In this document: in pieces, positions 1 through 14,025 of the stretch
Position numbering within the stretch: the first letter of the stretch is position 1
Layout: the number at the start of each line of letters is the position of its first letter
DNA from: Betaproteobacteria bacterium
GTDB taxonomy: Bacteria; Pseudomonadota; Gammaproteobacteria; Burkholderiales; SG8-39
Direction of reading: 5' to 3'
Assembly (NCBI GenBank): GCA_029865405.1
Contig: JAOUGZ010000016.1
Span: 1-16,794 of the forward strand
Length of the DNA stretch: 16,794 nucleotides
The notes under the pieces: model-generated
What the model was told of the DNA's origin: nothing
The model's input: only the letters and a program-made list of their open reading frames with translations
The model's database searches: none
Translations under genes and position numbers: made by a program

Positions 1-429
1 AGCGGCGAGTTCGTCTTGCAGCTTGAATTTCTGTGCGCGAAGGTTCTGCACAGCTTCCTCCAGTTGTTCGCGCGTGGCGCTCTTGAGCAACAATGGCTCT
101 AGCATCCCGGTTATTTCTATCTTCCCCACCCCCTGCGCATTACCGGCTGCTGGCACGGCAGGCTGCGCCGCTGCGGGTAGGGTGGCGGCGTCACGCACGT
201 CTCTGGCGCATCGGCGATAAGCCGCGGCTCGTCCTTCAGCCCATTTCGGATCGTCGCCCACTGCACCGCGTTCCGCAGCCTCGGCGTATCGGTCGAACGT
301 GGCAGCCAATCGCTCGATTTCGCGCTCGTGCGCGGCATCACACGCCTGCCCCACCGAGACCGGGGGCTTCGCCGCGAGCAGCGCCTCCCTGCCTTCGTCG
401 GGTGCAGCCATCTTGCGCGGATCGGTCAT
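1..429 (-). CDS. Hypothetical phage protein, partial (C-terminus beyond left edge)
   Basis: Reading left from an ATG at 429, the frame stays open through position 1 (143 codons), so the C-terminus is outside the window. The start is well supported: GGAGG lies at 435-439, five bases upstream, and the ATG overlaps the stop of the preceding gene as ATGA, suggesting translational coupling. The first 100 residues are Ala/Arg/Glu-rich and helical (AHEREIERLAATFDRYAEA, then a DDPKWAEGRAAAYRRCARD stretch). An Ala/Pro linker follows. The last visible part (KIEITGMLEPLLLKSATREQLEEAVQNL split by the linker) looks like an amphipathic helix or short coiled coil. I do not recognise the family. Its place in a unit of small genes led by a zinc-ribbon gene suggests an early, non-structural role, which is inference. 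Codon use matches its neighbours. Confidence 0.72.
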   Translation of the reverse strand, partial: MTDPRKMAAPDEGREALLAAKPPVSVGQACDAAHEREIERLAATFDRYAEAAERGAVGDDPKWAEGRAAAYRRCARDVRDAATLPAAAQPAVPAAGNAQGVGKIEITGMLEPLLLKSATREQLEEAVQNLRAQKFKLQDELAA

Positions 430-1625: not shown

Positions 1626-1660
1626 AGGCCCGGCCGGTAAAGCCGGGCCTCTTTCGTTTC
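1624..1660 (+). terminator. Rho-independent terminator (plus strand)
   Basis: A perfect 11-bp stem, AGAGGCCCGGC (1624-1634) with GCCGGGCCTCT (1642-1652), has the 7-base loop CGGTAAA and is followed by the T-rich tail TTCGTTTC. It ends the rightward phosphatase unit. The stem would also form in leftward transcripts leaving the giant gene, whose stop codon is at 1660-1662. The T-run on that side is poor, so leftward termination would be weaker. Confidence 0.88.
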
Positions 1661-4600
1661 TAGGGCGCCGCGCGCTCCTCGAATCGCTTATTGAAGCCCA
1701 TCATCGCCTGCCGGATGCGCCCCTGCAGCTGCTCGATCTGCTTGGTGCGCTGGTCGTCGGTAAGCCGGTCGTTCTTGCGGACCCGCCAGACCTCTTTGCG
1801 CAGGACGCCGATCTGACGCTCGACGGCCTGGGCTTCGGCGTACATGGACCGCTCGCCGCGGAATTCGCTGGCGTAGGCGCGAGCCTTGTCCTGCTGGCCG
1901 CGCTCGAAGGCACGCTGGACCTCGAAGTGCGCCGTCTCCGCTGCGTTCAGGTTCTCGTAGAAGCGATGCGAGAGCTCGAAGTCCTTGGGCTGGTAGTAGA
2001 AGCGCCGCAGGAACGGAATGTCCCGGACCTCGGGCTCCGCCCCGACTGCCTTGCCGTGCACGAACTCGGCCGTGCGCGCATAGAAGGCGCCGGCGCCGCC
2101 GAAGATCGAGCGCGTCCAGTGCTCGAGCATGTTCGGGGCAATGTCCAGGATCCCGGAGCGCACTTCATTTCCACCGGTTGCCTCGTTCAGCCAGGCCGTG
2201 ACATCGACGTAGCCCTGCGGCGTGCCAGCGTAGTAGGTCGCGCTCTTCGCCTGCGGCGGCGCGGTGCGCGGGCGCTCTGGCACGATGCTGCGGTCGAACC
2301 AATTCCGGTTCGTCATGGCCTGCGCGAACGGATCGAAGAAGGTAGGACTGATCAGCTGCAGCGCGCCCAGCGCGCTCTCGGGGCTTTGTCCGAACGGGTT
2401 GAAGGCATTGATCATCGTCACGAGCATGTCGCCCGCGGCGTCGAGCGGCGTCTTCGCCCCCTGCATGACCGACATGGCATGCACGCCGGCGACGTAGAAC
2501 ACGTTGAAACCGAAGGGCAGCGGCACGGTAATCGCGTCTTCGCCGTCCGGCGTCATGAGGATGAAGTTGCGCTCCTTGATGGCGTCGTTGATGTTGTCGT
2601 AGACCTTGCGGCCGTCCGGCTCGGTCGCGCTTTCTCGGCGGTTCCACCAATCGAACCCCATACCCAACAGGAACAGCATCAGCGCCAGGGCTTGAATCGC
2701 CCGGTGGTTCGCCACGGAGCGGAACAGCAGCGCCGAGCCCTGAATGTTGGCGTTGAAGAACATGTAGTAGGCGCCGATCAGCGTGCCGGCATTGCCCTTG
2801 AGGTTGAAGTCCACGGTCACGTTGCGCGCGAGGAAGGCGGCGTCCTTCTCGTTCCACCCGGACTCGACCGCGTTCTTGAAGGTCGACAGGCGCAGCGCGT
2901 TTTCCACGGCGCCGTTGGCGTTGATGATGAGATTGGCGAAGAACTTTACGCCGGCGACTTTCGCCACACGATGCGCGCGCAGCCGCGTTTTCGTCAGCCC
3001 AGCGACGGCCTCGGGCATGATCCCGCTGTCGGCGAGCGTGGTCAGGAAGTCCTTGTGTTGGGTTTCCACGTCCTGCAGGCCGCGGTAGGCGACGTGCCCG
3101 CCGGCCTCGATGTAGCGCCTGTACCAGCGGTGCCAGTCGCCAGAGTCCGGCTTCAGTTGGCCCTTCGCGTGCAGCCCGGCGAATGCGCCCCAGAGCGCCC
3201 CAGGGACGTCCTTCGCCACCTTGAGCGCGAGGCCGGGATTCTGCTCCCCGGAAATGCGGATTACCGCCTGCTGGAAGTCGCGCATCAGGTTCGTGACTAC
3301 GAATTCCGGGTTCGCCGCGGTTGCCATCAGCGCATAGAAGCGCGTGATAGTCCCGATCATCTGGGTGAATTCGCTCACTGGCTGGCCGCTCGTCTTGTAT
3401 GCCTGGGCCATGCGCTCGTCGGCCATCATGATGATCACGCGCTCGCCGTTGACGGGGACGCTGATTGCGCGCCCGCCGTACTTGGCGTCGATCAGCACCG
3501 AGCGCGGCGCGTACTGGACTTGCCCGGTGTCCTGGTCGATATAGGGCTTCCACACGTGCTTCTGGATCCGCCACACGCCGGGATTCGGGGCGAATTCGAC
3601 TTGGCGCAGGAGGGAGCGCAGCACCGCCGCGTTCTCACCTGCCGAGATAGTGCCTTTGGCCTGGGCGATGAGCGCCGGCAGGATGAACTCGGACTGCGCT
3701 TCGGTGAACCGGCCGAAGGCGGTGTTGATCAGCCGTCCCACCTGGTAGCCGCCGCCGACCTCGGTTTGCACGTGCTCATCCGTCGCCATTTCCTTGAGCG
3801 GCACGTAGTTCGGGTACTTTTGCTGCAGGAGCGCCACCGCTTCCATTTTGGCGAGGCCCTTGTCGATCATGACGTCTTCGCGGAATCGGCTGATGCGATT
3901 GGCGAGGGCGCCGATCTGCTCCATGGCGGCGAAGCGCGCGCCCAGCCGATCGCGTAGCCCCTGCATCATCTGCGCCGCGCGCTCGGTGGTGATACCCGAC
4001 CCGGCCTTGTTGTCCGGGTTGATGGACTCGATCGCCGCATTGCGCTCCGGGGCGTGGCGCGCGTACAGGTAGTCGCCAACGTCTCTGAGAGTGAAGCGAT
4101 TGGCCTTCATCAGGTCGATGATCGGCTCGCTGTGGTCGTGGTCGAAGTCGGCGATCTTGCCGGCCGCGCGCGGATGCGCGATGCGCGCCTCGCGGTGAGC
4201 CTTGGCCGACTCGGGGATCGCGCCCACTTGCGCCGCGATCGTGCGCTCGTAGAGCTCGGGCAGGAGCAACCTGTTCTGGAAGTAGATCACGGCGCGACGC
4301 AGGTACGAATCGGCTTTGGGCGCCACCCAATCCCGATCGAACAGAGACGAATCGGGCACCGGGAGATTGCGGGGCTTGATCACGTTCAACTCCAGCCCTT
4401 CCCGGTTGAACATGCGATTGACTTCGTTCAGGCTCGCAGCCTGGTCGCGACGGAACTGCCCCCGGGCGAACATGTTCTCGTTCGTGCCGTTAGCCAGGTA
4501 CACGTCCCAGATCCCGGCGTTACCACGCTTCACGGCCATGCCGAGCAGCCGGCCATCCTTGACCCCGTAGACCTCGCGCACGCCCACCGGCTCGCGTAGG

Positions 4601-7600
4601 GAGAAGCGCGTGCGGCGCGCAGCGCGGGCCAGGTGCGCGGCGTAGGCGTCCCGGGCGGCCTCGATCAGCTGCTCGTCGCTGCCCGCCCTCCCGCTTGGCG
4701 TCCCCGATACGATGTGGCGCAGCCGGTCAGCCAACTCGGTCCGCGTTTCGATCTTCATGCCGGAAGGAACGTCGCCCATGAAGCGCCAGTAGGAATCCCG
4801 GAATTGCTCCTCCACCGTGCTGTAGTCCGCGGCGTCCTCGGCGTCCTGCTCGACCTCGAGCTCGCCTTCCAGTTGCTCCAAGGTGCTGGAGTAGCGAACG
4901 CGCAACTGGGCCAGCTCGGCGTCCAGGTCTTCGGCGTTCTTCTGGCCGCGCCGATAGGCCTGGTCGACGCGCCGGCCCAGCGCGCGCATCTGATCCGCCA
5001 TGCGCGACACGTCGTCGCGCAGGCTGAACATCGGCAGGCCGCGCAGCGCCGCATCGCGCATGGCTGGGGTGATGTCGAAGCCGAGTTGCGTCATTACAAC
5101 AACACTGGTAGGACGTGGGGACGGGCTCAATGTTTCAAGTTTGGCTAGCGCATCGCCGGCCAACTCTCTCGTTCTGTAAGAGCCATAGCTGGTGCCGTCA
5201 GCGTAGAACACATCAAAGTGAGAGGCGCGCGCTGTGCTGGGTCGAATGTAATTACCTTGTGCTGTACGGATCTCGGCGATGCCGACTTCCACAACGCGCC
5301 CGCCGCCGACCTTCTTCAACACGTTGTTGGCGACGATGGGGACGATCTTGTCGTAGAACTCGATCATGGCCTTCCCGCCGATGCGTAGCTCCTGCCGCAG
5401 CGTGCGTGCGCGCGTCATGCTCGGCGCGAGGCGTTCGGCCTCGGCCTTGGTCGGCGCGTCGCCAAGGTAAACACCATGACGGGTGACCTGGAAGTGCGAC
5501 TGCGTAGCGTTCCTGTAGCGCGCCTCGGTAATCAGGGCGTCGGCCTCACCTTCGCCGGCGATGATCCGTTTGGCTAGATCCTCGCCCACCACGTCGGGCA
5601 GGAGGGCGGCGGTGTAGTAGCCAAGGTCAACTCGGCGGCCGCGCGTGTCCTTTCCGGTGATCCGATACTTCGACTGCCCATCGCCCGGGGGCTCGTAGCT
5701 CACCTCGCTGACGCGCGTGCCGATGCCATAGCGGTCATTCTGCTGATCGCCGGTGGTCCACGCGACGCGCTCGAAGCCGTTCTCGGCGGCGTAGCGGATG
5801 ACGCGCTTCAGCAATAGAGCGGTCCACTGTTCGGTCTTGCCGACGAAGGGGGCGCGCGGAATGGCAGTAGCATCAAAATGTGCGACAGCCTCCGCCCTGG
5901 TCGGCCTGGATCCGCCGATGCGAGCCCCATCCCCCTCCCGCACAACGACAAACATGCCGTCACCACGTTGCTCTACATGATGGCCACTCGGCAACTGCCC
6001 ACGGAACCCTCTCTTGCGCCCCTGCTCGGCCCAATCGCTTTGAAACTCCTCGACGAACAGGACGCGCTTGCCCTCGGCGTCGGTGCGCTCGTCGAAGCGC
6101 ACGTGGGCGAACAGGTTGAGCGTGTCGAAGTGCGGCGGGGTGAACGCATCGGCGCGCGCGTATGGCGGCACCACGGATGGCGCCGCCGGTGGCGGTAACG
6201 TCAGCAAGAGCTCTCGATAGTTGCGTCCACCTGGAAGCGCCCACTTCTCATAGCGCGTTACCGACAAACCAACGAAGTTGTCGTCTCCATGCCACGCTGT
6301 AGTAGGCGCGATCTCCCGTAGCCGATCCACCGCTTGGCGCAGGGTGCCGCCAACACCTTCCACAGATACATTCGAGTCCGGCAGTGCCGCGTACGGCTCT
6401 TCGCCGAGCAAGTGTCGGCCAGGCTCATCCTCTCGACGTGGGACGCGATTCGGATCCGCGAGGTAGAAGGCGTCGTTGTTCCTGTCGATCACTCCCCACA
6501 GCTTGCCTTCCTCGTCGTACTCGACATCGAAGCCGTGGGCGTCGAGGGCAACCTGCAGGTTGTCGCGCTCACGCAGGAGGTTGCGCATCTCGTTTTCGTC
6601 AGTGATGCCAGCGGGCGTGATGTAGTTCGGCTCGCCAAGGATTCGTTCCTCGATCTGCACGCCGTGATCCGTGAGGAATTCCAGCACGTTGTCCTTGGGC
6701 AGAATCGTCGTCTCTTTATCGGCATCCAGGGCATCGAACCACTCACGAAGGCCGGTCCACTCAATCTCGTCCGGCTTCACGCCCTTCTGCAGCAGGCCGC
6801 CGACGAACTTGCGCCACTCCGCGGTGGTGGCGCGCTTCGGCCCGAGCTCGCGCACCCGGTCCATCAGAGTCGAGCGCCAGATCGGTCTGGGCGCCGCAAG
6901 CTGCCATGCAGGCGAGCCGTTGTACGTGGTGTTGCCGCCGTTGATCACGGCCAGCCTGCTCTGGCGCAGCATCATCAGAATGTCGCTTTCGCTCCACTCT
7001 TTCACGAAGCCGTTCTCGCGCAGCCACAGGCGCACCATGGCGACGAAGCGCTGCCACAGATTCGCCTCCTCGCCGCGCTCGGCCCGGTGCGCCAGCCACT
7101 CGCTCGCGGCGTGGATCTGGTGCTCGGGCTTTCGGAAATCGAAGTTGTAATTCCGCAGAGGGCCGGTCCGCGCTTCGGCTTGAATGTCGCCTGCGCGAGA
7201 GCGGTAGACGTCGAGCATGAAATCGACGTACTTCTCGCCGAGGATCTGGTCCATGCCATAGTGCCCGACGAACTCGTGCAGGATGGTCGTACTGGCTTCG
7301 CCCGGTTGCAGGTTCGAGGCGACCAGGTAGACCTTGCCTTGCACCGGGCTCCAGGCGCCGCTCACCTTGGCGATCCCGCCGATCGCCATGAGCTCGTCGA
7401 TCATGTGCTGCGGCAGCTGGTATGGATTGTCAACGTACTCGATGCGGCTGCGGAAGGCTTGAGCGATGGGGTTGCTCATCAACTCTTCCTGCACCTTCGG
7501 CACGGTCATGTCGCTCCAGCGACCGGACAGGCTGTAGAACGGCTGCAGCGCCGTCGAGCGCCCGCGCTCGGCGAACGAAGCGAGACTGGGCAGGCCTTGG

Positions 7601-10600
7601 GCCGATCCGACGTCTACGGGCGTGAAAGCGTCGAGCATTCTCACGTCCGCGCCAGCGAGCGCGCCGCCCACGTTGCTCACGGCGCGCTGTATTTCCGGGG
7701 AATAGGCCTCGCCCGGGAAGTACGCCACCGCCGCCGCTGGATTGTTGCGCCCCACCTGGCGCATCAGCTTGGCAAAGCCGCTCGTGAGCTCGTGCGTGCG
7801 CAGCTTCGACATTTCCTCCTTCGCCATGTAGTAGAAGGCGATCGGCCGATGCTGCGCATCCATGAGGAGCAGGCCGCTACGCTCTGGCTTGATACGGCCA
7901 AGGTACTCGCGCATGGCGCCGGGCGACTGCAGCGCGACGCCGCGGTCCTGCTCGAGCTTGACGACACGCTCGCGCACGGGGATTTCCTTCCCCTGCGCCA
8001 CCACTTGAGGAAGCGGCTGCGTGCCCAGCCCCATTGCGTGGAAGTTCTGCCCCGCGATAATGATGTGGCCCTTGAATTCGATGCCCAGGTCGCGAGTCAG
8101 GCCGGCCGAGAGGCTGTCGTTCAGGAGCTCATCAGCGTTCGAAGGGCTCGCCAAGCCGCTCGGATGATTGTGGGCCAACCAGACCTTACGTACTTCCGGG
8201 GTCTGGTAAAGAGCAAGCCATACCTCGCGTGGATAGACGCTCGTTTGCGTGAGCGTGCCGGCGAACAGGTCGTAGTAGGCAATCGGCTCGTCGCGCTCGT
8301 TCAGGCCGAGCATGTGGAAGCGCTCGCGCGGCGACTTCACCAGCTGCGTGAACGCGCTGGCGGCGTCTACGTGGTCCCGAATTACTGTCGAGGGCAACCG
8401 GACGGATCCGGTGCGCTCGGATTCGACTACGATTTTTTCGAAGAGGACGCCCGGCGTACCCGGTACGGGGGTCTGGGAGAATAGGTCGAGTTGCGGCGTG
8501 GCCGCACCTTCGTCTCGATCCTTTCTTTGGGAAGCGGGTACTTCACCCCCCAACGATACCATCGCCTCGAACTTCTTCGCGAGCGACGTCGACAGCGGCC
8601 CGCCCTTCGGCCCCTTACCGCCCTTGGTCTGCGCCCACTGCGTGAACGCCTTGAAGGACATGGGGATGATGGAGTCCAGGCCGTCCCAGTTTGCCGCGTA
8701 GTTGCGCAAATAGCCCTCGCGCGCGTCGGCGAGGTCGCCGTAGCCGAGCATCACCTTGTGCTCATCGAAGCCGCCGACCACCTGGTTGACGACGAATACG
8801 AGCCCGCCGAAGTCGTCCCGCGTCCCCGGCTTCACGAACACGTCCAGGTGATCCTTGTCGAATCCGATCGTCCCCTTGATGTAGCCGTAGTGATCTTTCA
8901 GCGGCGGCCATTCCGGGCGGCGCTTCTCTCCTTCTGGCGTCTCGATCGAGATATCGAGTTGGTGACCTTTAGGCCCGACGATCCAGTGGCCCTTCGAGTA
9001 GTTGCCAGCTTCGGCCTGCGCCTGACTCTCGGGCGTCTCGGCTTGCTTCGCGGCGTAGTCGACAGTGCGCTGGAACAGCTTGAGTTGCTGCGTCGGAACT
9101 TTCTGCTCGTCCACCGACTTCGGCGGCGCCGTGCCCTCGGGCGTCGTGAGTAGGGGCGGCTCGGGGCCGGTGAGCTTGGGCTGCGGGGCTTCGGTGGGCT
9201 TCGAGAACAGGTCGCCACCGCGCTCCGGTGGCTTCTCCTTCGCGATCGTTCGCAGCCGCTCCCAGGGCTGCAGCTTGCCCGGCGCTGGGATGCCCTTCGG
9301 GTTGCGGTTTGCGTTGCGGATCAGGCTGACGCTCTTTGTGCGCTCCCACTTGACCTCGACGCTCTGCTCGCCACCAACTTTCTCGGCCTTGATGATTTCG
9401 CCCTTGTCGCCCTTTTCGTTCTCAACGCGATCGCCTACGGCAAATTCAGTCGGCTTGGTGAGAGCCCGGCCTTCGTCCTCCGGCAGTTCGGCCTCGCCCC
9501 AGCTGCGTTCGTCGGCCTCGCGCTCGGCGATTTCGCTCTGCGACAACTCACCCAGCAAGTCGGGTTGCGGCGCGCGCTCGGCCATGAGCGCCTGCATGTC
9601 GTCTCGCCACTTCTCGTAGGTAAAGCTATCGTCGTGCGCGTAGCTGGCGTGCGTGACCTCGCCGAAGTCCATCGCACGCGCATCGAGTAGCGGCTCAGAC
9701 TCGGGGCCAGAACGCCCGTAAAGGAACGTGCGAATGTGGAATCGGGTTGGCGTGATCTTCTCGATCTTCCCGAACGTGCCTGACACATACGCGCTCGCGC
9801 CGTCCACCGTGTCCGCGATCACCGCGTGGATCTGCACGGTATCGCCGACGCTGAAAGTCTCCCTGTAGTCTTTCTCCTGCTGTCTCCAGTGTGCTTCGGC
9901 CTTGGCGCGATCATCGGCTTGCACTTGCGCTTTCGATTTGCCGGCGACGTACTTGCCCTTGGGCTGCTTGACCTTGGAGCGCTCATCGAACACGGCACGG
10001 CGCATTTGCGCGACTAGCTCTCGGCGTGAGGCGAGCACCCAGTCGTAGGTGCCCCGGATTGCGTTCTCTCCGGGGATCGGGCGCTCGGCAATGTTGCGCT
10101 CGACCTGCTCTATAACTCTCTCGGCAACGAGTAGCCAGCCATCGCCATAACGCTTCTTGATCCGCGCGACCCATTGCGCGCCATCCTCGTTGCCGTACGC
10201 CGCGCGCGCCTGCTCCGCAACGAGGCGCGTGCCGCGTCCGCCGCGCTCGGTCTTGACCTCGGGATCCTTGGTGTGCCCATCGAAAGCGATGGCCTTTGCT
10301 TCGTCGAACGACTGCGCCACGCCCTTGTTGCGCAACTGGCCCATGGAGCCGCTGACCACGACGTGCCACGGGCGCATGTCGGGCACCGGCTTGAGGATGA
10401 TAGCGCGGCGCCCGTTGATGTCCGCGGCAAAGTAGTCCAGGTACTCGTTCCAGTTGACGTCTTCTGGCGTTTTAGCAACCGGCGCGCCCTCGTCGATCTC
10501 GCGCGGGCCGAACGCCTTGAGCCTGTTCTTGCGCGCCTCGACCGCAGCTTGGTCCACCGGCACATCACGCGCGTGCTCTGCGGCGTCGCGCGCCGTTTCC

Positions 10601-13600
10601 ACGAGCTCCTTGGGCGCCGTCTTTATTGCCTGGTCGCTGAACAACCAGGTCATGAATTCCGCCTTTTGGACACGGACGCGCGTGCCCCCGGGCGGATAGG
10701 TCCAGAGCGCGCCGTCGTCGTTCAGCTTCGCGTTCTTGTCGAAGGCCGCTATCAGCTTGGGCATGTCGCTGGCCGCGTGCTCGGCCACCGCATCGAAGTG
10801 CGGCCCGATCGCGCGCCCCTTGAGCTCGGTGCCATCGGGCAGCGTGAACGCAGCTACTTGAGCGGCTTCGCCTTCAGCGGCCTCACTGTCGACAATTTTG
10901 GTGACTTTGTAGCGCGGCGGCGGGCGTTGGCGAGTTTGGCGATCTCCATCACCTTCTTCATCTCGTTCGGTGTCATAGGGCTTCTCCAGTTCGCGGCGCA
11001 GGGCCACGATCAATTCTTCGTCGGGGGCTTCGGCGTACTGAATCGAGAACCGCTCGCGCGTGTCTTCGTCCAACTGGCTCATCAGATCAGTGATCACCAT
11101 TTTCGAGGCATCCGCCGTCAGGCCGCGCTCGGCCAACTCCTCGGGCGGAATGTCGAATTGCAGCGGTATGTCGCCGGCAAGCGCCTCGGCTTCGTCGGCT
11201 AGTTCCCGGTCTGGATCCTCTGACAGTTCGGCCTTGGCGCGCTCGTCTGCGGCGAGCGCCCGATCGCTGCGCTGCATCGACCAATGCTTGGGAACGACCG
11301 TGTTGTTCGGCCCGATCTCGTCCCTGATGCGCTCGGCGATCACGGTCAGATCGCCGCGCTCCTCCTCGTTGAGATAGCCCATTTCGTAGAGCTTCTCGGC
11401 CATGCCGTCGAGGGACTCGCCTTCGGCATTGAACAAGGCGCCGAGAAAGGGGATTTTCGGGTTCGACCCCTTGGTGTCCCCGGTGATGTCGAGGCGCTCG
11501 ATCGGCCCGATGCCGCCCAGCTTGATGACCGCCGACACGATGCTGTCAGTGTCGGTGTTGACCTGCGCGCGCCGCGCGCGGGCCTCGCGCATCTTGCGCA
11601 GCGCCTCCTCGGTCGGGGGCTTCTTGGGCTTTTTCACCAGGTCGATGAGCTGCTGGCGCAGTGGTGCGCGATCTGGATCGTTGACGGCCAGGCGCCCCAT
11701 CTGATCGAGCACGGCCTTGACCTCGGCTGCCGCCTCGTCGTCGATCGCTTTCCAGAGCCGGCCCAGCGCGCGCCCATCGTTGAGCTCTACGGTATCGGCG
11801 TCGACCAGCTTGCCGTCCTTGCCTACGTAAAAGCTGGACACTATGCCGCTCGGGCTGCGTTTCTCGAGCATCACGGCGCCGCCCGCGCTCTTGACCCTCG
11901 AAACCCGGTACTTGGAGCCCTTCTCTGGTCCTGCACGGAACCCATTTGGCAGCTCGGCGCCAGGCTCACTCGGCGTCGGCGTGACGGCCTGCGGCGGACG
12001 AACTGCCTCCGGCGAAACATCACTCGGCGGCGCAACGGCGGCTGAACGAGAACCAGGAGGAGGAGAAGGTTCAACGGCAGCCGCCGCCGGCCGCCTTTCA
12101 GGAGCGGGCTTGCGGCCCACTGTTTTTCTGGTCATGCCCAGGAGCGCTTTGGCGTCCTCACCGAGCGATGCGAATTCCGTCAACGGTACTTCCTGCCCAT
12201 CGGCAAGGCGCGCGGTGCCAATTTCCTGCCCAGGCCCTGTGATCTGGACCTCGTAGCCGACACCGTTGACGGTCCATTCGGCGTTCGCCTCGGGCTTCTT
12301 GACGGGCTCGGCGCGATCGGCCTCGACCAGATCGCCCTCGTCGGTTTCCCACACCCCGCGCACCGGTTTTCCCTGTTCGGCGCGCGCGCGCACGGGGGTG
12401 CCGTCCTCGAGGCGGTGCGTGGCTGGGCCGCGCGCCTCACGCTGCGCCACGGCGGCCTTGGCGGCGGCCTCGGTCACCTGTTTGAACTGTTCCACCCCTT
12501 CCCGGAACTTCTGCAGGATCGCGGCTTGCTGCTCCGCCGCATCTGCCTCACGGCCGCGCAGCGCGCGCACCGCGCCAGCCTGCGCGCCCGCGGCGAGCGG
12601 CGTGCTGGTGATGGTGAGCAGGAGCTCCTCGGCGTACTCGTCCCAGGTCATTTCCGGACGCACGCTCACTTTGTCGACGGCATTCTGCAGGCCGGTGGCC
12701 AGGAGCTCCTGGCCGACCTCCTTGGACAGGAAGTTGAGGAACCATTGCAGGGTGCCCTTCCCGGCGCCGGCGAACAGCTGCTTGACCGGGGCGTACTCGG
12801 TCCCGCCCTCGATGACGGCATGCAGCATGGCGTAGACGCCAGCCTGGCCGGGAGACAGCCCCTCTTCCCGGCCCTCGCCGTACGCGATCGCGCCTGTCTC
12901 AGCCGACATCAAACCGATGACCGCCAGCGGCGAGCGCGTGATCAGCCCGGCGCCCAGCGCCGGCCCCATGATTGCGAGGCTCTGGATCGCCATGCCCACG
13001 GACTGGGCGCCCAAGCCCGGCCGCAGATCCTTGGTGAGCTCTTTCTCGCGCTCCTCGCCCATCTTGACCAGGGTGCGACCCAAGGTCGCCATCTGCTCGC
13101 GTTCCTGATCCGTCAGGTCCGGTGTCAGCGGCCCTTCGGCGCCCTGCTCGGGCGTTTCTGCCCGGTAAATGGGGGCTTCGGCCATCCCCATCATGACGCC
13201 GCCCAGCATCTTCCGGTACAGGGGGTCGATCCCCTTCACGCTGGCTTCCACGTTGCGCCAGAAGTCGCTCATGGCGACGTCGCGCGCGCGCTGCGCCTCG
13301 CCCTGCACCCTGCGCTCGACCTCGCTCAGCGCGTTGGCCGGAAGCTGCTGGCGTTCCAGATTGGCGATCTGGGCTTCTGGATACGGGCGCGGTCGGCCTT
13401 CCCGGTCGGCCTCGATGTTCGCGATGCGCATCCGAGAGGATTCAACCCGCAGGCCAGGCTCGGCGGCGCTGCCCAATGCCCCGGCGCGCTGCCGCGCGAT
13501 CACGTCGCGCTGGGTCTGGTTCAGACCATCTTGCGCTGCATCAATCCTCTGTTGCTGGCGCCTGCGGTCCTCGGGTCCGCTTGGGCGCAGGAGGTTCGAC

Positions 13601-14025
13601 ACCCAGTCGATTCCACGGTCAACTGCAGACTTGACTGAATCGAGCACGCCATCGTCGGCGGGAGCGGCCTTGGCGCCAAACTGCTGCAGAAACTCCGCCC
13701 CCAGTTCGGCGTCGGACTTCTCCCCGACCGGCGCGCCACGGCGCGGCCCCGCGATGGCCGCCTCGCGCTCGTCGAAGCGCAGTGTGTCCGCGTCGTAGGC
13801 TTCCCGGAGGATCTGTCGGCGCGCTGGATCTGGTTGTCTCTCGATGGCGCGGCGATGCTCCTGCCGCTGCGTAGGTTGCGACTCGTAAGCGTCGCTCGCC
13901 TCACGCTCGCCTTCGGACATCAGCTGCGCGCGGCGGTTCTCCAGCGCACGCATCGACGGGCCTTGCCGCCCGTTTGGCGGCTCCAGCTCGTCGAGGATCG
14001 CCTTGAAATCGTCGTAACCACTCAC
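1660..14025 (-). CDS. Giant polyvalent virion/ejection protein, 4,121 aa
   Basis: An intact leftward frame of 4,121 codons starts at a GTG (GTGA overlap with the upstream stop; GGGGAAG upstream). Domains in order are: a charged helical N-terminus (1-330); a Gly/Ala hydrophobic stretch (about 343-381); small beta modules and a Pro-rich linker (about 637-691); a conserved 'LGGI...LDGMAEKLYEMGYL' phage region (827-905); a family I pyrophosphatase-like domain (1672-1822); a JAMM/RadC-like domain (1853-1998) and a dead copy (2032-2133); a HEFVGH zincin (2196-2358); an EEFQSDW/FYDK domain (about 2576-3001); a coiled coil (3005-3065); and an LPD38-like C-terminus (about 3570-4121). This matches phage polyvalent proteins of the DarB type, thought to be injected with DNA and to act on host defences or processes. 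The operon position after two internal-protein-like genes supports packaging in the head. The domain calls are from motifs; overall function is inference. No helicase or methylase domain was seen. Confidence 0.9.
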   Translation of the reverse strand: MSGYDDFKAILDELEPPNGRQGPSMRALENRRAQLMSEGEREASDAYESQPTQRQEHRRAIERQPDPARRQILREAYDADTLRFDEREAAIAGPRRGAPVGEKSDAELGAEFLQQFGAKAAPADDGVLDSVKSAVDRGIDWVSNLLRPSGPEDRRRQQQRIDAAQDGLNQTQRDVIARQRAGALGSAAEPGLRVESSRMRIANIEADREGRPRPYPEAQIANLERQQLPANALSEVERRVQGEAQRARDVAMSDFWRNVEASVKGIDPLYRKMLGGVMMGMAEAPIYRAETPEQGAEGPLTPDLTDQEREQMATLGRTLVKMGEEREKELTKDLRPGLGAQSVGMAIQSLAIMGPALGAGLITRSPLAVIGLMSAETGAIAYGEGREEGLSPGQAGVYAMLHAVIEGGTEYAPVKQLFAGAGKGTLQWFLNFLSKEVGQELLATGLQNAVDKVSVRPEMTWDEYAEELLLTITSTPLAAGAQAGAVRALRGREADAAEQQAAILQKFREGVEQFKQVTEAAAKAAVAQREARGPATHRLEDGTPVRARAEQGKPVRGVWETDEGDLVEADRAEPVKKPEANAEWTVNGVGYEVQITGPGQEIGTARLADGQEVPLTEFASLGEDAKALLGMTRKTVGRKPAPERRPAAAAVEPSPPPGSRSAAVAPPSDVSPEAVRPPQAVTPTPSEPGAELPNGFRAGPEKGSKYRVSRVKSAGGAVMLEKRSPSGIVSSFYVGKDGKLVDADTVELNDGRALGRLWKAIDDEAAAEVKAVLDQMGRLAVNDPDRAPLRQQLIDLVKKPKKPPTEEALRKMREARARRAQVNTDTDSIVSAVIKLGGIGPIERLDITGDTKGSNPKIPFLGALFNAEGESLDGMAEKLYEMGYLNEEERGDLTVIAERIRDEIGPNNTVVPKHWSMQRSDRALAADERAKAELSEDPDRELADEAEALAGDIPLQFDIPPEELAERGLTADASKMVITDLMSQLDEDTRERFSIQYAEAPDEELIVALRRELEKPYDTERDEEGDGDRQTRQRPPPRYKVTKIVDSEAAEGEAAQVAAFTLPDGTELKGRAIGPHFDAVAEHAASDMPKLIAAFDKNAKLNDDGALWTYPPGGTRVRVQKAEFMTWLFSDQAIKTAPKELVETARDAAEHARDVPVDQAAVEARKNRLKAFGPREIDEGAPVAKTPEDVNWNEYLDYFAADINGRRAIILKPVPDMRPWHVVVSGSMGQLRNKGVAQSFDEAKAIAFDGHTKDPEVKTERGGRGTRLVAEQARAAYGNEDGAQWVARIKKRYGDGWLLVAERVIEQVERNIAERPIPGENAIRGTYDWVLASRRELVAQMRRAVFDERSKVKQPKGKYVAGKSKAQVQADDRAKAEAHWRQQEKDYRETFSVGDTVQIHAVIADTVDGASAYVSGTFGKIEKITPTRFHIRTFLYGRSGPESEPLLDARAMDFGEVTHASYAHDDSFTYEKWRDDMQALMAERAPQPDLLGELSQSEIAEREADERSWGEAELPEDEGRALTKPTEFAVGDRVENEKGDKGEIIKAEKVGGEQSVEVKWERTKSVSLIRNANRNPKGIPAPGKLQPWERLRTIAKEKPPERGGDLFSKPTEAPQPKLTGPEPPLLTTPEGTAPPKSVDEQKVPTQQLKLFQRTVDYAAKQAETPESQAQAEAGNYSKGHWIVGPKGHQLDISIETPEGEKRRPEWPPLKDHYGYIKGTIGFDKDHLDVFVKPGTRDDFGGLVFVVNQVVGGFDEHKVMLGYGDLADAREGYLRNYAANWDGLDSIIPMSFKAFTQWAQTKGGKGPKGGPLSTSLAKKFEAMVSLGGEVPASQRKDRDEGAATPQLDLFSQTPVPGTPGVLFEKIVVESERTGSVRLPSTVIRDHVDAASAFTQLVKSPRERFHMLGLNERDEPIAYYDLFAGTLTQTSVYPREVWLALYQTPEVRKVWLAHNHPSGLASPSNADELLNDSLSAGLTRDLGIEFKGHIIIAGQNFHAMGLGTQPLPQVVAQGKEIPVRERVVKLEQDRGVALQSPGAMREYLGRIKPERSGLLLMDAQHRPIAFYYMAKEEMSKLRTHELTSGFAKLMRQVGRNNPAAAVAYFPGEAYSPEIQRAVSNVGGALAGADVRMLDAFTPVDVGSAQGLPSLASFAERGRSTALQPFYSLSGRWSDMTVPKVQEELMSNPIAQAFRSRIEYVDNPYQLPQHMIDELMAIGGIAKVSGAWSPVQGKVYLVASNLQPGEASTTILHEFVGHYGMDQILGEKYVDFMLDVYRSRAGDIQAEARTGPLRNYNFDFRKPEHQIHAASEWLAHRAERGEEANLWQRFVAMVRLWLRENGFVKEWSESDILMMLRQSRLAVINGGNTTYNGSPAWQLAAPRPIWRSTLMDRVRELGPKRATTAEWRKFVGGLLQKGVKPDEIEWTGLREWFDALDADKETTILPKDNVLEFLTDHGVQIEERILGEPNYITPAGITDENEMRNLLRERDNLQVALDAHGFDVEYDEEGKLWGVIDRNNDAFYLADPNRVPRREDEPGRHLLGEEPYAALPDSNVSVEGVGGTLRQAVDRLREIAPTTAWHGDDNFVGLSVTRYEKWALPGGRNYRELLLTLPPPAAPSVVPPYARADAFTPPHFDTLNLFAHVRFDERTDAEGKRVLFVEEFQSDWAEQGRKRGFRGQLPSGHHVEQRGDGMFVVVREGDGARIGGSRPTRAEAVAHFDATAIPRAPFVGKTEQWTALLLKRVIRYAAENGFERVAWTTGDQQNDRYGIGTRVSEVSYEPPGDGQSKYRITGKDTRGRRVDLGYYTAALLPDVVGEDLAKRIIAGEGEADALITEARYRNATQSHFQVTRHGVYLGDAPTKAEAERLAPSMTRARTLRQELRIGGKAMIEFYDKIVPIVANNVLKKVGGGRVVEVGIAEIRTAQGNYIRPSTARASHFDVFYADGTSYGSYRTRELAGDALAKLETLSPSPRPTSVVVMTQLGFDITPAMRDAALRGLPMFSLRDDVSRMADQMRALGRRVDQAYRRGQKNAEDLDAELAQLRVRYSSTLEQLEGELEVEQDAEDAADYSTVEEQFRDSYWRFMGDVPSGMKIETRTELADRLRHIVSGTPSGRAGSDEQLIEAARDAYAAHLARAARRTRFSLREPVGVREVYGVKDGRLLGMAVKRGNAGIWDVYLANGTNENMFARGQFRRDQAASLNEVNRMFNREGLELNVIKPRNLPVPDSSLFDRDWVAPKADSYLRRAVIYFQNRLLLPELYERTIAAQVGAIPESAKAHREARIAHPRAAGKIADFDHDHSEPIIDLMKANRFTLRDVGDYLYARHAPERNAAIESINPDNKAGSGITTERAAQMMQGLRDRLGARFAAMEQIGALANRISRFREDVMIDKGLAKMEAVALLQQKYPNYVPLKEMATDEHVQTEVGGGYQVGRLINTAFGRFTEAQSEFILPALIAQAKGTISAGENAAVLRSLLRQVEFAPNPGVWRIQKHVWKPYIDQDTGQVQYAPRSVLIDAKYGGRAISVPVNGERVIIMMADERMAQAYKTSGQPVSEFTQMIGTITRFYALMATAANPEFVVTNLMRDFQQAVIRISGEQNPGLALKVAKDVPGALWGAFAGLHAKGQLKPDSGDWHRWYRRYIEAGGHVAYRGLQDVETQHKDFLTTLADSGIMPEAVAGLTKTRLRAHRVAKVAGVKFFANLIINANGAVENALRLSTFKNAVESGWNEKDAAFLARNVTVDFNLKGNAGTLIGAYYMFFNANIQGSALLFRSVANHRAIQALALMLFLLGMGFDWWNRRESATEPDGRKVYDNINDAIKERNFILMTPDGEDAITVPLPFGFNVFYVAGVHAMSVMQGAKTPLDAAGDMLVTMINAFNPFGQSPESALGALQLISPTFFDPFAQAMTNRNWFDRSIVPERPRTAPPQAKSATYYAGTPQGYVDVTAWLNEATGGNEVRSGILDIAPNMLEHWTRSIFGGAGAFYARTAEFVHGKAVGAEPEVRDIPFLRRFYYQPKDFELSHRFYENLNAAETAHFEVQRAFERGQQDKARAYASEFRGERSMYAEAQAVERQIGVLRKEVWRVRKNDRLTDDQRTKQIEQLQGRIRQAMMGFNKRFEERAAP
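1663..3315 (-). other. Region: LPD38-like C-terminal part of the giant protein
   Basis: Residues about 3571-4121 carry ANPEFVVTNLMRDFQQAVI, DFNLKGNAGTLIGAYYMFF (from D3739), a hydrophobic segment ending FDWW (W3794), ERNFILMTP, VPLPFGFNVFY and NAFNPFG. This ordered set resembles the large-polyvalent-protein-associated domain 38 region. The last 100 residues are a charged helix ending in MGFNKRFEERAAP. The role is not known; the hydrophobic helix may contact membrane. Confidence 0.6.
5020..6300 (-). other. Domain: conserved phage EEFQSDW/FYDK region, function unknown
   Basis: Residues about 2576-3001 carry FAHVRFDERTDAEGKR, EEFQSDWAEQGRKRG, a LKRVIRYAAENGFERVAWTTG segment, and IEFYDKIVPIVAN. 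They end in GFDITPAMRDAALRG. I recognise this set from many large phage proteins, but the biochemical role is not known to me. The domain is interrupted by three small beta-alpha modules. Confidence 0.6.
6952..7440 (-). other. Domain: zincin-like metallopeptidase of polyvalent proteins
   Basis: Residues about 2196-2358 contain TTILHEFVGHYGMDQIL with H2250, E2251 and H2255. This is the HExxGH form common in phage polyvalent metallopeptidases. SEWLAHRAER 54 residues later offers E2309 as a third zinc ligand. Its substrate could be a host protein or the giant protein itself. Confidence 0.75.
7627..7932 (-). other. Domain: degenerate second JAMM/RadC-like copy
   Basis: Residues about 2032-2133 repeat the fold pattern of the preceding domain: SPGAMREYLG helix, ERSGLLLMDAQHRPIAFYY strands, then a helix and AAAVAYFPGE. 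The HNHPSG of the active copy is replaced by YFPGE (Y2102-E2106) and no S-x-x-D follows, so it should not bind the catalytic zinc. Confidence 0.55.
8032..8469 (-). other. Domain: JAMM/RadC-like metalloprotease fold, catalytic residues intact
   Basis: Residues about 1853-1998 contain the exact JAMM signature: E1901 (RERF), then H1952-N-H1954-P-S-G, seven residues to S1962, then D1965. The SVYPREVWLAL helix before it is typical of RadC/JAB proteins. JAMM domains are usually zinc isopeptidases or deubiquitinases; the RadC branch has no settled activity. Confidence 0.85.
8560..9012 (-). other. Domain: family I inorganic pyrophosphatase-like (InPase of polyvalent proteins)
   Basis: Residues about 1672-1822 of the giant protein run from AGNYSKGHW through HGYIKG-type and DVFV segments. 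The core HYGYIKGTIGFDKDHLDVFV mirrors the family I soluble pyrophosphatase signature. D1723, D1725 and D1728 form DxDxxD, and FDEHK (D1754, K1757) fits the later metal/phosphate-binding region. Such domains are known in phage polyvalent proteins, where they may act on pyrophosphate or nucleotide substrates. The retained acidic residues suggest an active enzyme. Confidence 0.8.

Follow-up and report, generated by a model that had tools for sequence, protein, structure and literature searches.

What brings several unrelated enzyme-like domains together in one very long chain, and where such a chain would act, is the question raised by a contig of a Betaproteobacteria bacterium (GenBank assembly GCA_029865405.1, contig JAOUGZ010000016.1; the window hereafter means the whole analysed stretch of 16,794 nucleotides). 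The window carries one uninterrupted open reading frame (ORF) at 1660-14025 on the minus strand, which starts with GTG and encodes a giant protein of 4,121 amino acids (aa). The giant is a phage-type polyvalent protein, a class defined, with delivery into the host predicted, by Iyer, Burroughs, Anand, de Souza and Aravind (Iyer 2017, PMC5512222). It holds several domains of disparate predicted activity: Pfam recognises InPase, RadC and LPD38, and motifs, profiles and predicted folds identify a zincin and a GNAT-like domain, in agreement with the first-pass annotation, which had proposed a polyvalent phage protein with several enzyme types in one chain. We consider it likely that the protein is packaged and ejected, with a conserved C-terminal chassis, probably assisted by an N-terminal hydrophobic module, and exchangeable cargo between the two.

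The gene itself is intact over about 12.4 kb, as the first-pass annotation had also reported; its strand is supplied here. G+C content lies between 0.76 and 0.90 at third codon positions (G+C3) and between 0.42 and 0.50 at second positions (G+C2) in each of ten tiles of 412 codons, and this steadiness indicates a coding signal along the whole ORF. On the plus strand the interval 1660-14025 contains many stops. An IMG/VR record of 43,877 bp (G001) matches the window from base 583 on with 5 mismatches, and its giant ORF differs from that of the window by one synonymous base at codon 3326. Bases 1-582 of the window are arranged unlike G001, which could raise the suspicion that the assembly is chimeric or the gene dead and drifting, but the same ORF save for one silent base in G001, the uniform codon bias and the identical parts in identical order in a metagenomic relative (P0009) leave such an explanation with next to no probability.

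The last part of the chain is what relates the giant most clearly to other phage proteins. Residues 3237-4117 (1675..4317, minus strand) form a mostly helical module common to phage giants with different upstream parts. LPD38 (PF18857, residues 3807-4006, 2008..2607, minus strand; expectation value (E) 7e-39) lies within it, as does the 19-residue segment with the highest hydrophobicity in the chain (3776-3794, 2644..2700, minus strand). The LPD38-like end noted at first pass is therefore present, but the conserved unit spans about 880 aa, far beyond LPD38 alone. In the giants of three named phages, a clear relation to the window protein is found solely in these last ~880 residues; the zincin region gives a weak further match in two of the three, which is not significant by itself. 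Stretches similar to the module are present in 133 phage records, and the 60 listed include Vibrio phage 1.205.O, Ruegeria phage 45A6 and Bcep22-like phages, in which a giant ends with it; Bacillus phages are also among its holders. In IMG/VR at least 568 stretches encode a relative of the module, and the locus analyses given here cover the best 80 of them. A predicted model of the module (predicted local distance difference test, pLDDT, 80; predicted template modelling score, pTM, 0.72) is mostly helical and has 74 matches among predicted viral proteins at E <= 0.001, with identities of 12-31% among the 50 listed.

Position of the module is nearly constant. No more than 100 residues follow it in 152 of 153 proteins that have most of it (in the exception, P0224, there are 137), and 1-95 aa follow it in all 76 IMG/VR loci where a stop is present. 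Chain length among the 66 complete IMG/VR giants ranges from 1,124 to 4,090 aa, and the upstream parts are swapped. The slot between the zincin and the C-terminal module is occupied by the EEFQSDW domain (described below) in P0009, P0010, P0011 and P0015 and by a HATPase in P0013 and P0014; in P0128, P0012 and P0129 it contains no EEFQSDW domain and no HATPase is listed for these three either. For more distant relatives, helicase, methylase and other models are listed upstream, and P0233 has helicase, GNAT and MuF-type models. Residues 1665-1989 of P0015 form an intein/Hint-like segment, below the Pfam cut-off, that adjoins a helicase-like stretch (SNF2/ResIII matches at 1561-1623), and an intein model (PF14890) is listed for P0183 as well.

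For one giant whose C-terminal module is related to this one, presence in virions is documented. Gp69 of podovirus JC1 (4,515 aa), which matches the module at E 1e-40 over 84% of the query with 25% identity, was detected with 51 unique peptides and 15.6% coverage in CsCl-purified virions (PMC9144972). By analogy, the window giant is probably a virion passenger, as had been suggested at first pass. Taken together, the C-terminal position of the module, the swapped upstream parts and the JC1 virion giant suggest that the giant most likely serves as a chassis that delivers interchangeable cargo.

A second module common to other phage giants lies near the other end of the chain. This N-terminal hydrophobic module (residues 329-497, 12535..13041, minus strand) is found in 84 of the 232 proteins that were examined, a set gathered with the window protein as query and hence biased, and begins within the first quarter of every one of these 84 chains. 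The giant has a hydrophobic segment near each end. Residues ~500-1660 (~1,160 aa) contain no Pfam domain and only one sub-threshold match.

The two hydrophobic segments would also suit a protein that is mainly structural. T7 gp16 and P22 gp16 and gp20 are structural ejection proteins, and the window giant could likewise build a trans-envelope channel in which the enzyme-like parts serve DNA entry and not host attack. The giant gene stands at the end of a short cluster next to genes for head closure and tail, 72 of the 79 genome loci that carry a related module come from Pseudomonadota as read from the record titles, and phage N4 ejects its giant with two further proteins (PMC12633501); two smaller virion genes adjoin that giant. 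The upstream parts, on the other hand, change freely, from the HATPase of P0013 and P0014 to the helicase, GNAT and MuF-type models of P0233 and methylase and other models elsewhere, which is unlike a part of a fixed channel, and Bacillus phages also carry the module. On balance we regard a mainly structural role as rather unlikely.

For a packaged and ejected chassis with cargo, the following course may be envisaged. The giant would be packed into the virion with the genome and enter the host with the DNA, presenting its enzymes early in infection. The C-terminal ~880 residues, probably with the N-terminal hydrophobic module, would serve packaging and ejection, and the segments between the two modules would be exchangeable cargo. 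Among the cargo, the InPase-like domain would probably hydrolyse pyrophosphate (PPi) or the phosphoanhydride of a nucleotide signal, the RadC metalloenzyme with its fused inactive copy would probably act on nucleic acid or nucleotide, and the GNAT-like domain would probably modify a host target, whereas the zincin most likely processes the chain itself. PHROG scans of 38 of the 39 called genes of G001 found neither a terminase nor a portal or major capsid protein. The record is therefore probably partial and does not fix the phage morphotype, which lowers our confidence in this proposal slightly.

The zincin-like metallopeptidase domain (residues 2172-2345, 6991..7512, minus strand) was described at first pass as a HEFVGH zincin. 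The domain is confirmed, and its motif is of the HEXXXH form and not HEXXH, as four residues separate the two histidines. H2250, E2251 and H2255 make up the motif and E2309, the candidate third ligand, follows downstream, so that the protein has both the HEXXXH motif and the downstream glutamate of polyvalent-type zincins. These residues are conserved in the alignment (H2250 and E2251 in 90 of 93 rows, H2255 in 92 of 92, E2309 in 93 of 93), and the HEXXXH form is seen in 129 of 151 matches, HEXXH in 21 and neither in 1. The HEXXXH form has been described in polyvalent proteins, and self-cleavage of polyvalent chains by the zincin has already been proposed, with some zincins perhaps acting as effectors (Iyer 2017, PMC5512222). 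The idea that the chain is cut into pieces by its own peptidases is consequently not new.

Co-occurrence counts bear on the role of this domain. Among 112 proteins retrieved through the C-terminal module alone, the zincin is present in 58, the N-terminal module in 48, the InPase in 30 and the EEFQSDW domain in 13; in the 66 complete IMG/VR giants the respective numbers are 44, 19, 10 and 3, with RadC in 4. The zincin is the commonest counted companion of the C-terminal module, and this speaks for a part in the processing or packaging of its own chain. No zincin was detected in the giant of Ruegeria phage 45A6, however similar its C-terminal module. The first-pass annotation had instead envisaged the zincin and the JAMM domain as two host-directed proteases forming a multi-target anti-host payload. 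Catalytic residues of both domains are conserved, as expected of such a payload, and the survey leaves an effector role open for some zincins; the same survey, however, argues that the RadC-type JAB acts on nucleic acids or nucleotides (PMC5512222), and frequent company with the C-terminal module fits self-processing better than a single host target. A pair of host-directed proteases is thus an unlikely explanation, and of the two peptidase types claimed, the JAMM domain is more appropriately read as RadC.

The RadC-type JAMM domain (residues 1873-1992, 8050..8409, minus strand) is matched by the RadC/JAB model PF04002 at residues 1888-1997 (E 5.5e-18) and presents both the JAMM motif E...HxH...SxxD and the RadC fold. 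All motif residues are intact: H1952, H1954, S1962 and D1965 occur in 50 of 50 alignment rows and E1901 in 44 of 50. The active-looking JAMM domain reported earlier is accordingly sound in its residues, while its identity is RadC and not a demonstrated peptidase. The NCBIfam RadC equivalog cut-off is missed (68 bits against 180), with model positions 90-205 of 212 matched. Presence of the ubiquitin-tail groove is considered improbable for a RadC-type JAB, and nucleic acid or nucleotide has been argued to be its substrate in preference to peptide (Iyer 2017, PMC5512222). The degenerate second copy claimed at first pass is also found, at residues 2015-2134 (7624..7983, minus strand); this RadC2 has no HxH, its order of helices and strands in the predicted model is similar to RadC, and profile-profile comparison of the two gives E 1.5e-4 with a probability of only 51%. 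RadC2 directly follows RadC in 46 of 52 RadC-bearing proteins, suggesting that they are kept as a pair. Pairing of active and inactive JAMM units is known from MPN+/MPN- dimers, and we conjecture that the two units stand side by side here in the same manner.

The InPase domain of the family I pyrophosphatase type (residues 1667-1801, 8623..9027, minus strand), another of the domains named at first pass, is matched by PF18823 at residues 1668-1798 with E 1e-31. Its DxDxxD and D...K positions, the acidic residues of family I inorganic pyrophosphatase, are conserved and we take them to be metal-binding. D1728 is present in 103 of 103 alignment rows, D1754 and K1757 in 104 of 105 and D1723 in 99 of 103; D1725 is found in 79 of 103 rows and replaced by E in 22. 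The domain is in register with pyrophosphatase 2uxs, whose match is itself not significant (E 0.22). Clearing of PPi or removal of a nucleotide signal have been suggested as roles (Iyer et al. 2017, PMC5512222).

The stretch between the zincin and the C-terminal module contains a domain that no Pfam-A model matches, and no Pfam GNAT model matches the giant chain. As proposed earlier, EEFQSDW (2659) and FYDK (2890) are parts of one domain (residues 2455-2944, 5194..6663, minus strand), to which we add a predicted GNAT-like fold with large insertions. In a weak predicted model, the fold resembles that of GNAT acyltransferases. GNAT enzymes bear an acyl-CoA pyrophosphate loop with the signature R/Q-x-x-G-x-G/A. 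After the EEFQSDW strand only a GRxxG piece is present here, with G2669 in 113 of 116 rows and R2670 in 89 of 117. The domain is a candidate new family, unnamed, widespread and apparently enzyme-like. We tentatively go one step further, with a compound proposal that we hold to be slightly less probable than its opposite: that it is an undescribed GNAT-fold family, in which invariant H2632, R2643, E2660, Q2662, W2734 and Y2891 replace the CoA loop, occurring in phage giants and smaller proteins, and that the giants are cassettes whose conserved C-terminal ejection module, often with a HEXXXH self-processing protease, would carry freely swapped enzymes, including RadC with an inactive RadC, into mostly Gram-negative cells. 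Three giants (P0032, P0053 and P0066) have three consecutive EEFQSDW blocks. At L054 (2072-12751) the giant of a relative is interrupted within this domain by an ORF of 222 aa, with the halves of the domain in the flanking ORFs; we take the start of this ORF to be GIY-YIG-like, and the split looks like a homing endonuclease insertion.

The presence of RadC in this chain has a bearing on the class as a whole. In the 2017 survey, RadC is reported only in conjugative-element polyvalent proteins, with InPase and LPD38 confined to phages (PMC5512222). The window protein has RadC, InPase and LPD38 together in one phage chain and thereby breaks this partition. Of the 52 RadC-bearing proteins in the query-biased set, 27 have both InPase and a match to the C-terminal module, 51 have at least one of these, and 28 have more than 60% of the module. 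The combination of domains is not unique, contrary to the novelty suggested at first pass. The order InPase, RadC, RadC2, zincin, EEFQSDW and C-terminal module, with other parts allowed in between, is found in 12 of the 232 proteins, one of them (P0008) being the window's own. Nine of the other 11 match 758-839 of 840 C-terminal-module positions, while P0023 and P0041 match only 207-234. None of the 11 is characterised.

The polyvalent class, its predicted delivery and the proposed zincin self-processing were already known (PMC5512222). What is new is the correction to the published RadC/InPase/LPD38 partition, since the giant unites domains that earlier work had kept apart, and a conserved enzyme-like domain that has no name and whose substrate deserves to be sought. 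In addition, a vague class becomes a testable design, with a C-terminal module that could carry enzymes into bacteria and a defined cargo slot between zincin and module, the contents of which differ among related phages.

The surroundings of the gene are those of virion genes, and its source is a phage. The giant gene closes a compact minus-strand cluster, read from 16722 to 1660, in which neighbours overlap by 4 bases or sit 2 bases apart; its start (GTG) overlaps the end of P0002 (14022-15152, minus strand, 376 aa) by 4 bases. P0002, directly upstream, is by its position alone a candidate for a second ejection protein. The N4 giant gene also has two smaller virion genes next to it, and we take these to encode its two co-ejected proteins. 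P0003 (15155..16231, minus strand, 358 aa) is a candidate ejection or core protein. It has weak tape-measure PHROG matches and is weakly similar to one of the upstream genes in Vibrio phage 1.205.O (E 6e-4). A GEYVIPA-type segment close to its C-terminus apparently underlies its resemblance to proteins encoded upstream of giants in L059 (E 7e-9) and L067 (E 1e-7). P0004 (16228..16722, minus strand) is tail fibre adhesin-like (phrog_24280, E 2.7e-33). Beyond P0004, G001 continues with a small gene and then a head-closure/internal virion protein of 606 aa (phrog_511, E 9e-106) similar to NVP1205O_13 (E 1.9e-47), which places head-closure/internal virion and tail fibre genes in one minus-strand cluster with the giant. 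Elsewhere G001 encodes Bet/RecT-like, RecE-like and tail fibre-like proteins and an ATPase. On the plus strand of the window, convergent with the giant gene, lies a gene (1047-1517) for a HAD-superfamily protein like polynucleotide kinase 3'-phosphatase (PF25109, E 5e-17; phrog_415, E 4e-36). The differing first 582 bases contain blastn pieces of 98.5-100% at shifted positions (window 1-174 corresponds to G001 16968-17141, 383-429 to 17653-17699 and 571-700 to 17826-17955), pointing to a local deletion or insertion or a mis-assembly.

In comparison to known systems, N4 virion RNA polymerase (gp50, 3,500 aa) is likewise a giant ejected protein adjoining smaller virion genes. In it, an HExxH region precedes a large helical part at the C-terminus (PMC12633501), whereas the window protein has HEXXXH. 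An RNA polymerase module was not detected in Pfam or NCBIfam scans of the giant, and in a phmmer search of the giant against a PDB set that included N4 polymerase chains, 9b41 and 2qlc were the sole matches with E up to 1. No significant sequence relation was found between the C-terminal parts of the N4 and window proteins (hhalign probability 0.5%), and sequence gives no support for their common origin. The 9b41 match (gp19) contains an InPase of the same family (E 5e-21), also in a virion protein; there it is fused to portal, while the window InPase resides in a polyvalent chain.

Closer likeness is found among polyvalent proteins. The phage-type proteins of the survey are also large multidomain chains that are encoded next to virion genes and contain InPase, zincin and LPD38 domains, to which the window protein adds RadC and the GNAT-like domain without a Pfam match (PMC5512222). 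The Bcep22-like (Lessievirus) proteins BcepIL02 gp70 (4,667 aa) and JC1 gp69 share its giant size and location beside virion-protein genes, and their C-terminal modules have 25% identity over 84-85% of the query. They differ in being annotated as DarB-like, with transglycosylase, helicase and methylase-type cargo; none of these families is among the Pfam matches of the window giant, and the earlier statement that the chain has no helicase or methylase agrees with this. The nearest relatives are the metagenomic proteins P0009, P0010, P0011 and P0015, which have the domain order of the window protein and C-terminal identities of 73, 67, 59 and 50%, respectively. P0011 is short (2,628 aa) with no N-terminal module seen, P0010 and P0015 have an extra ddrB-ParB domain (PF18763), and P0015 also has the intein-like segment.
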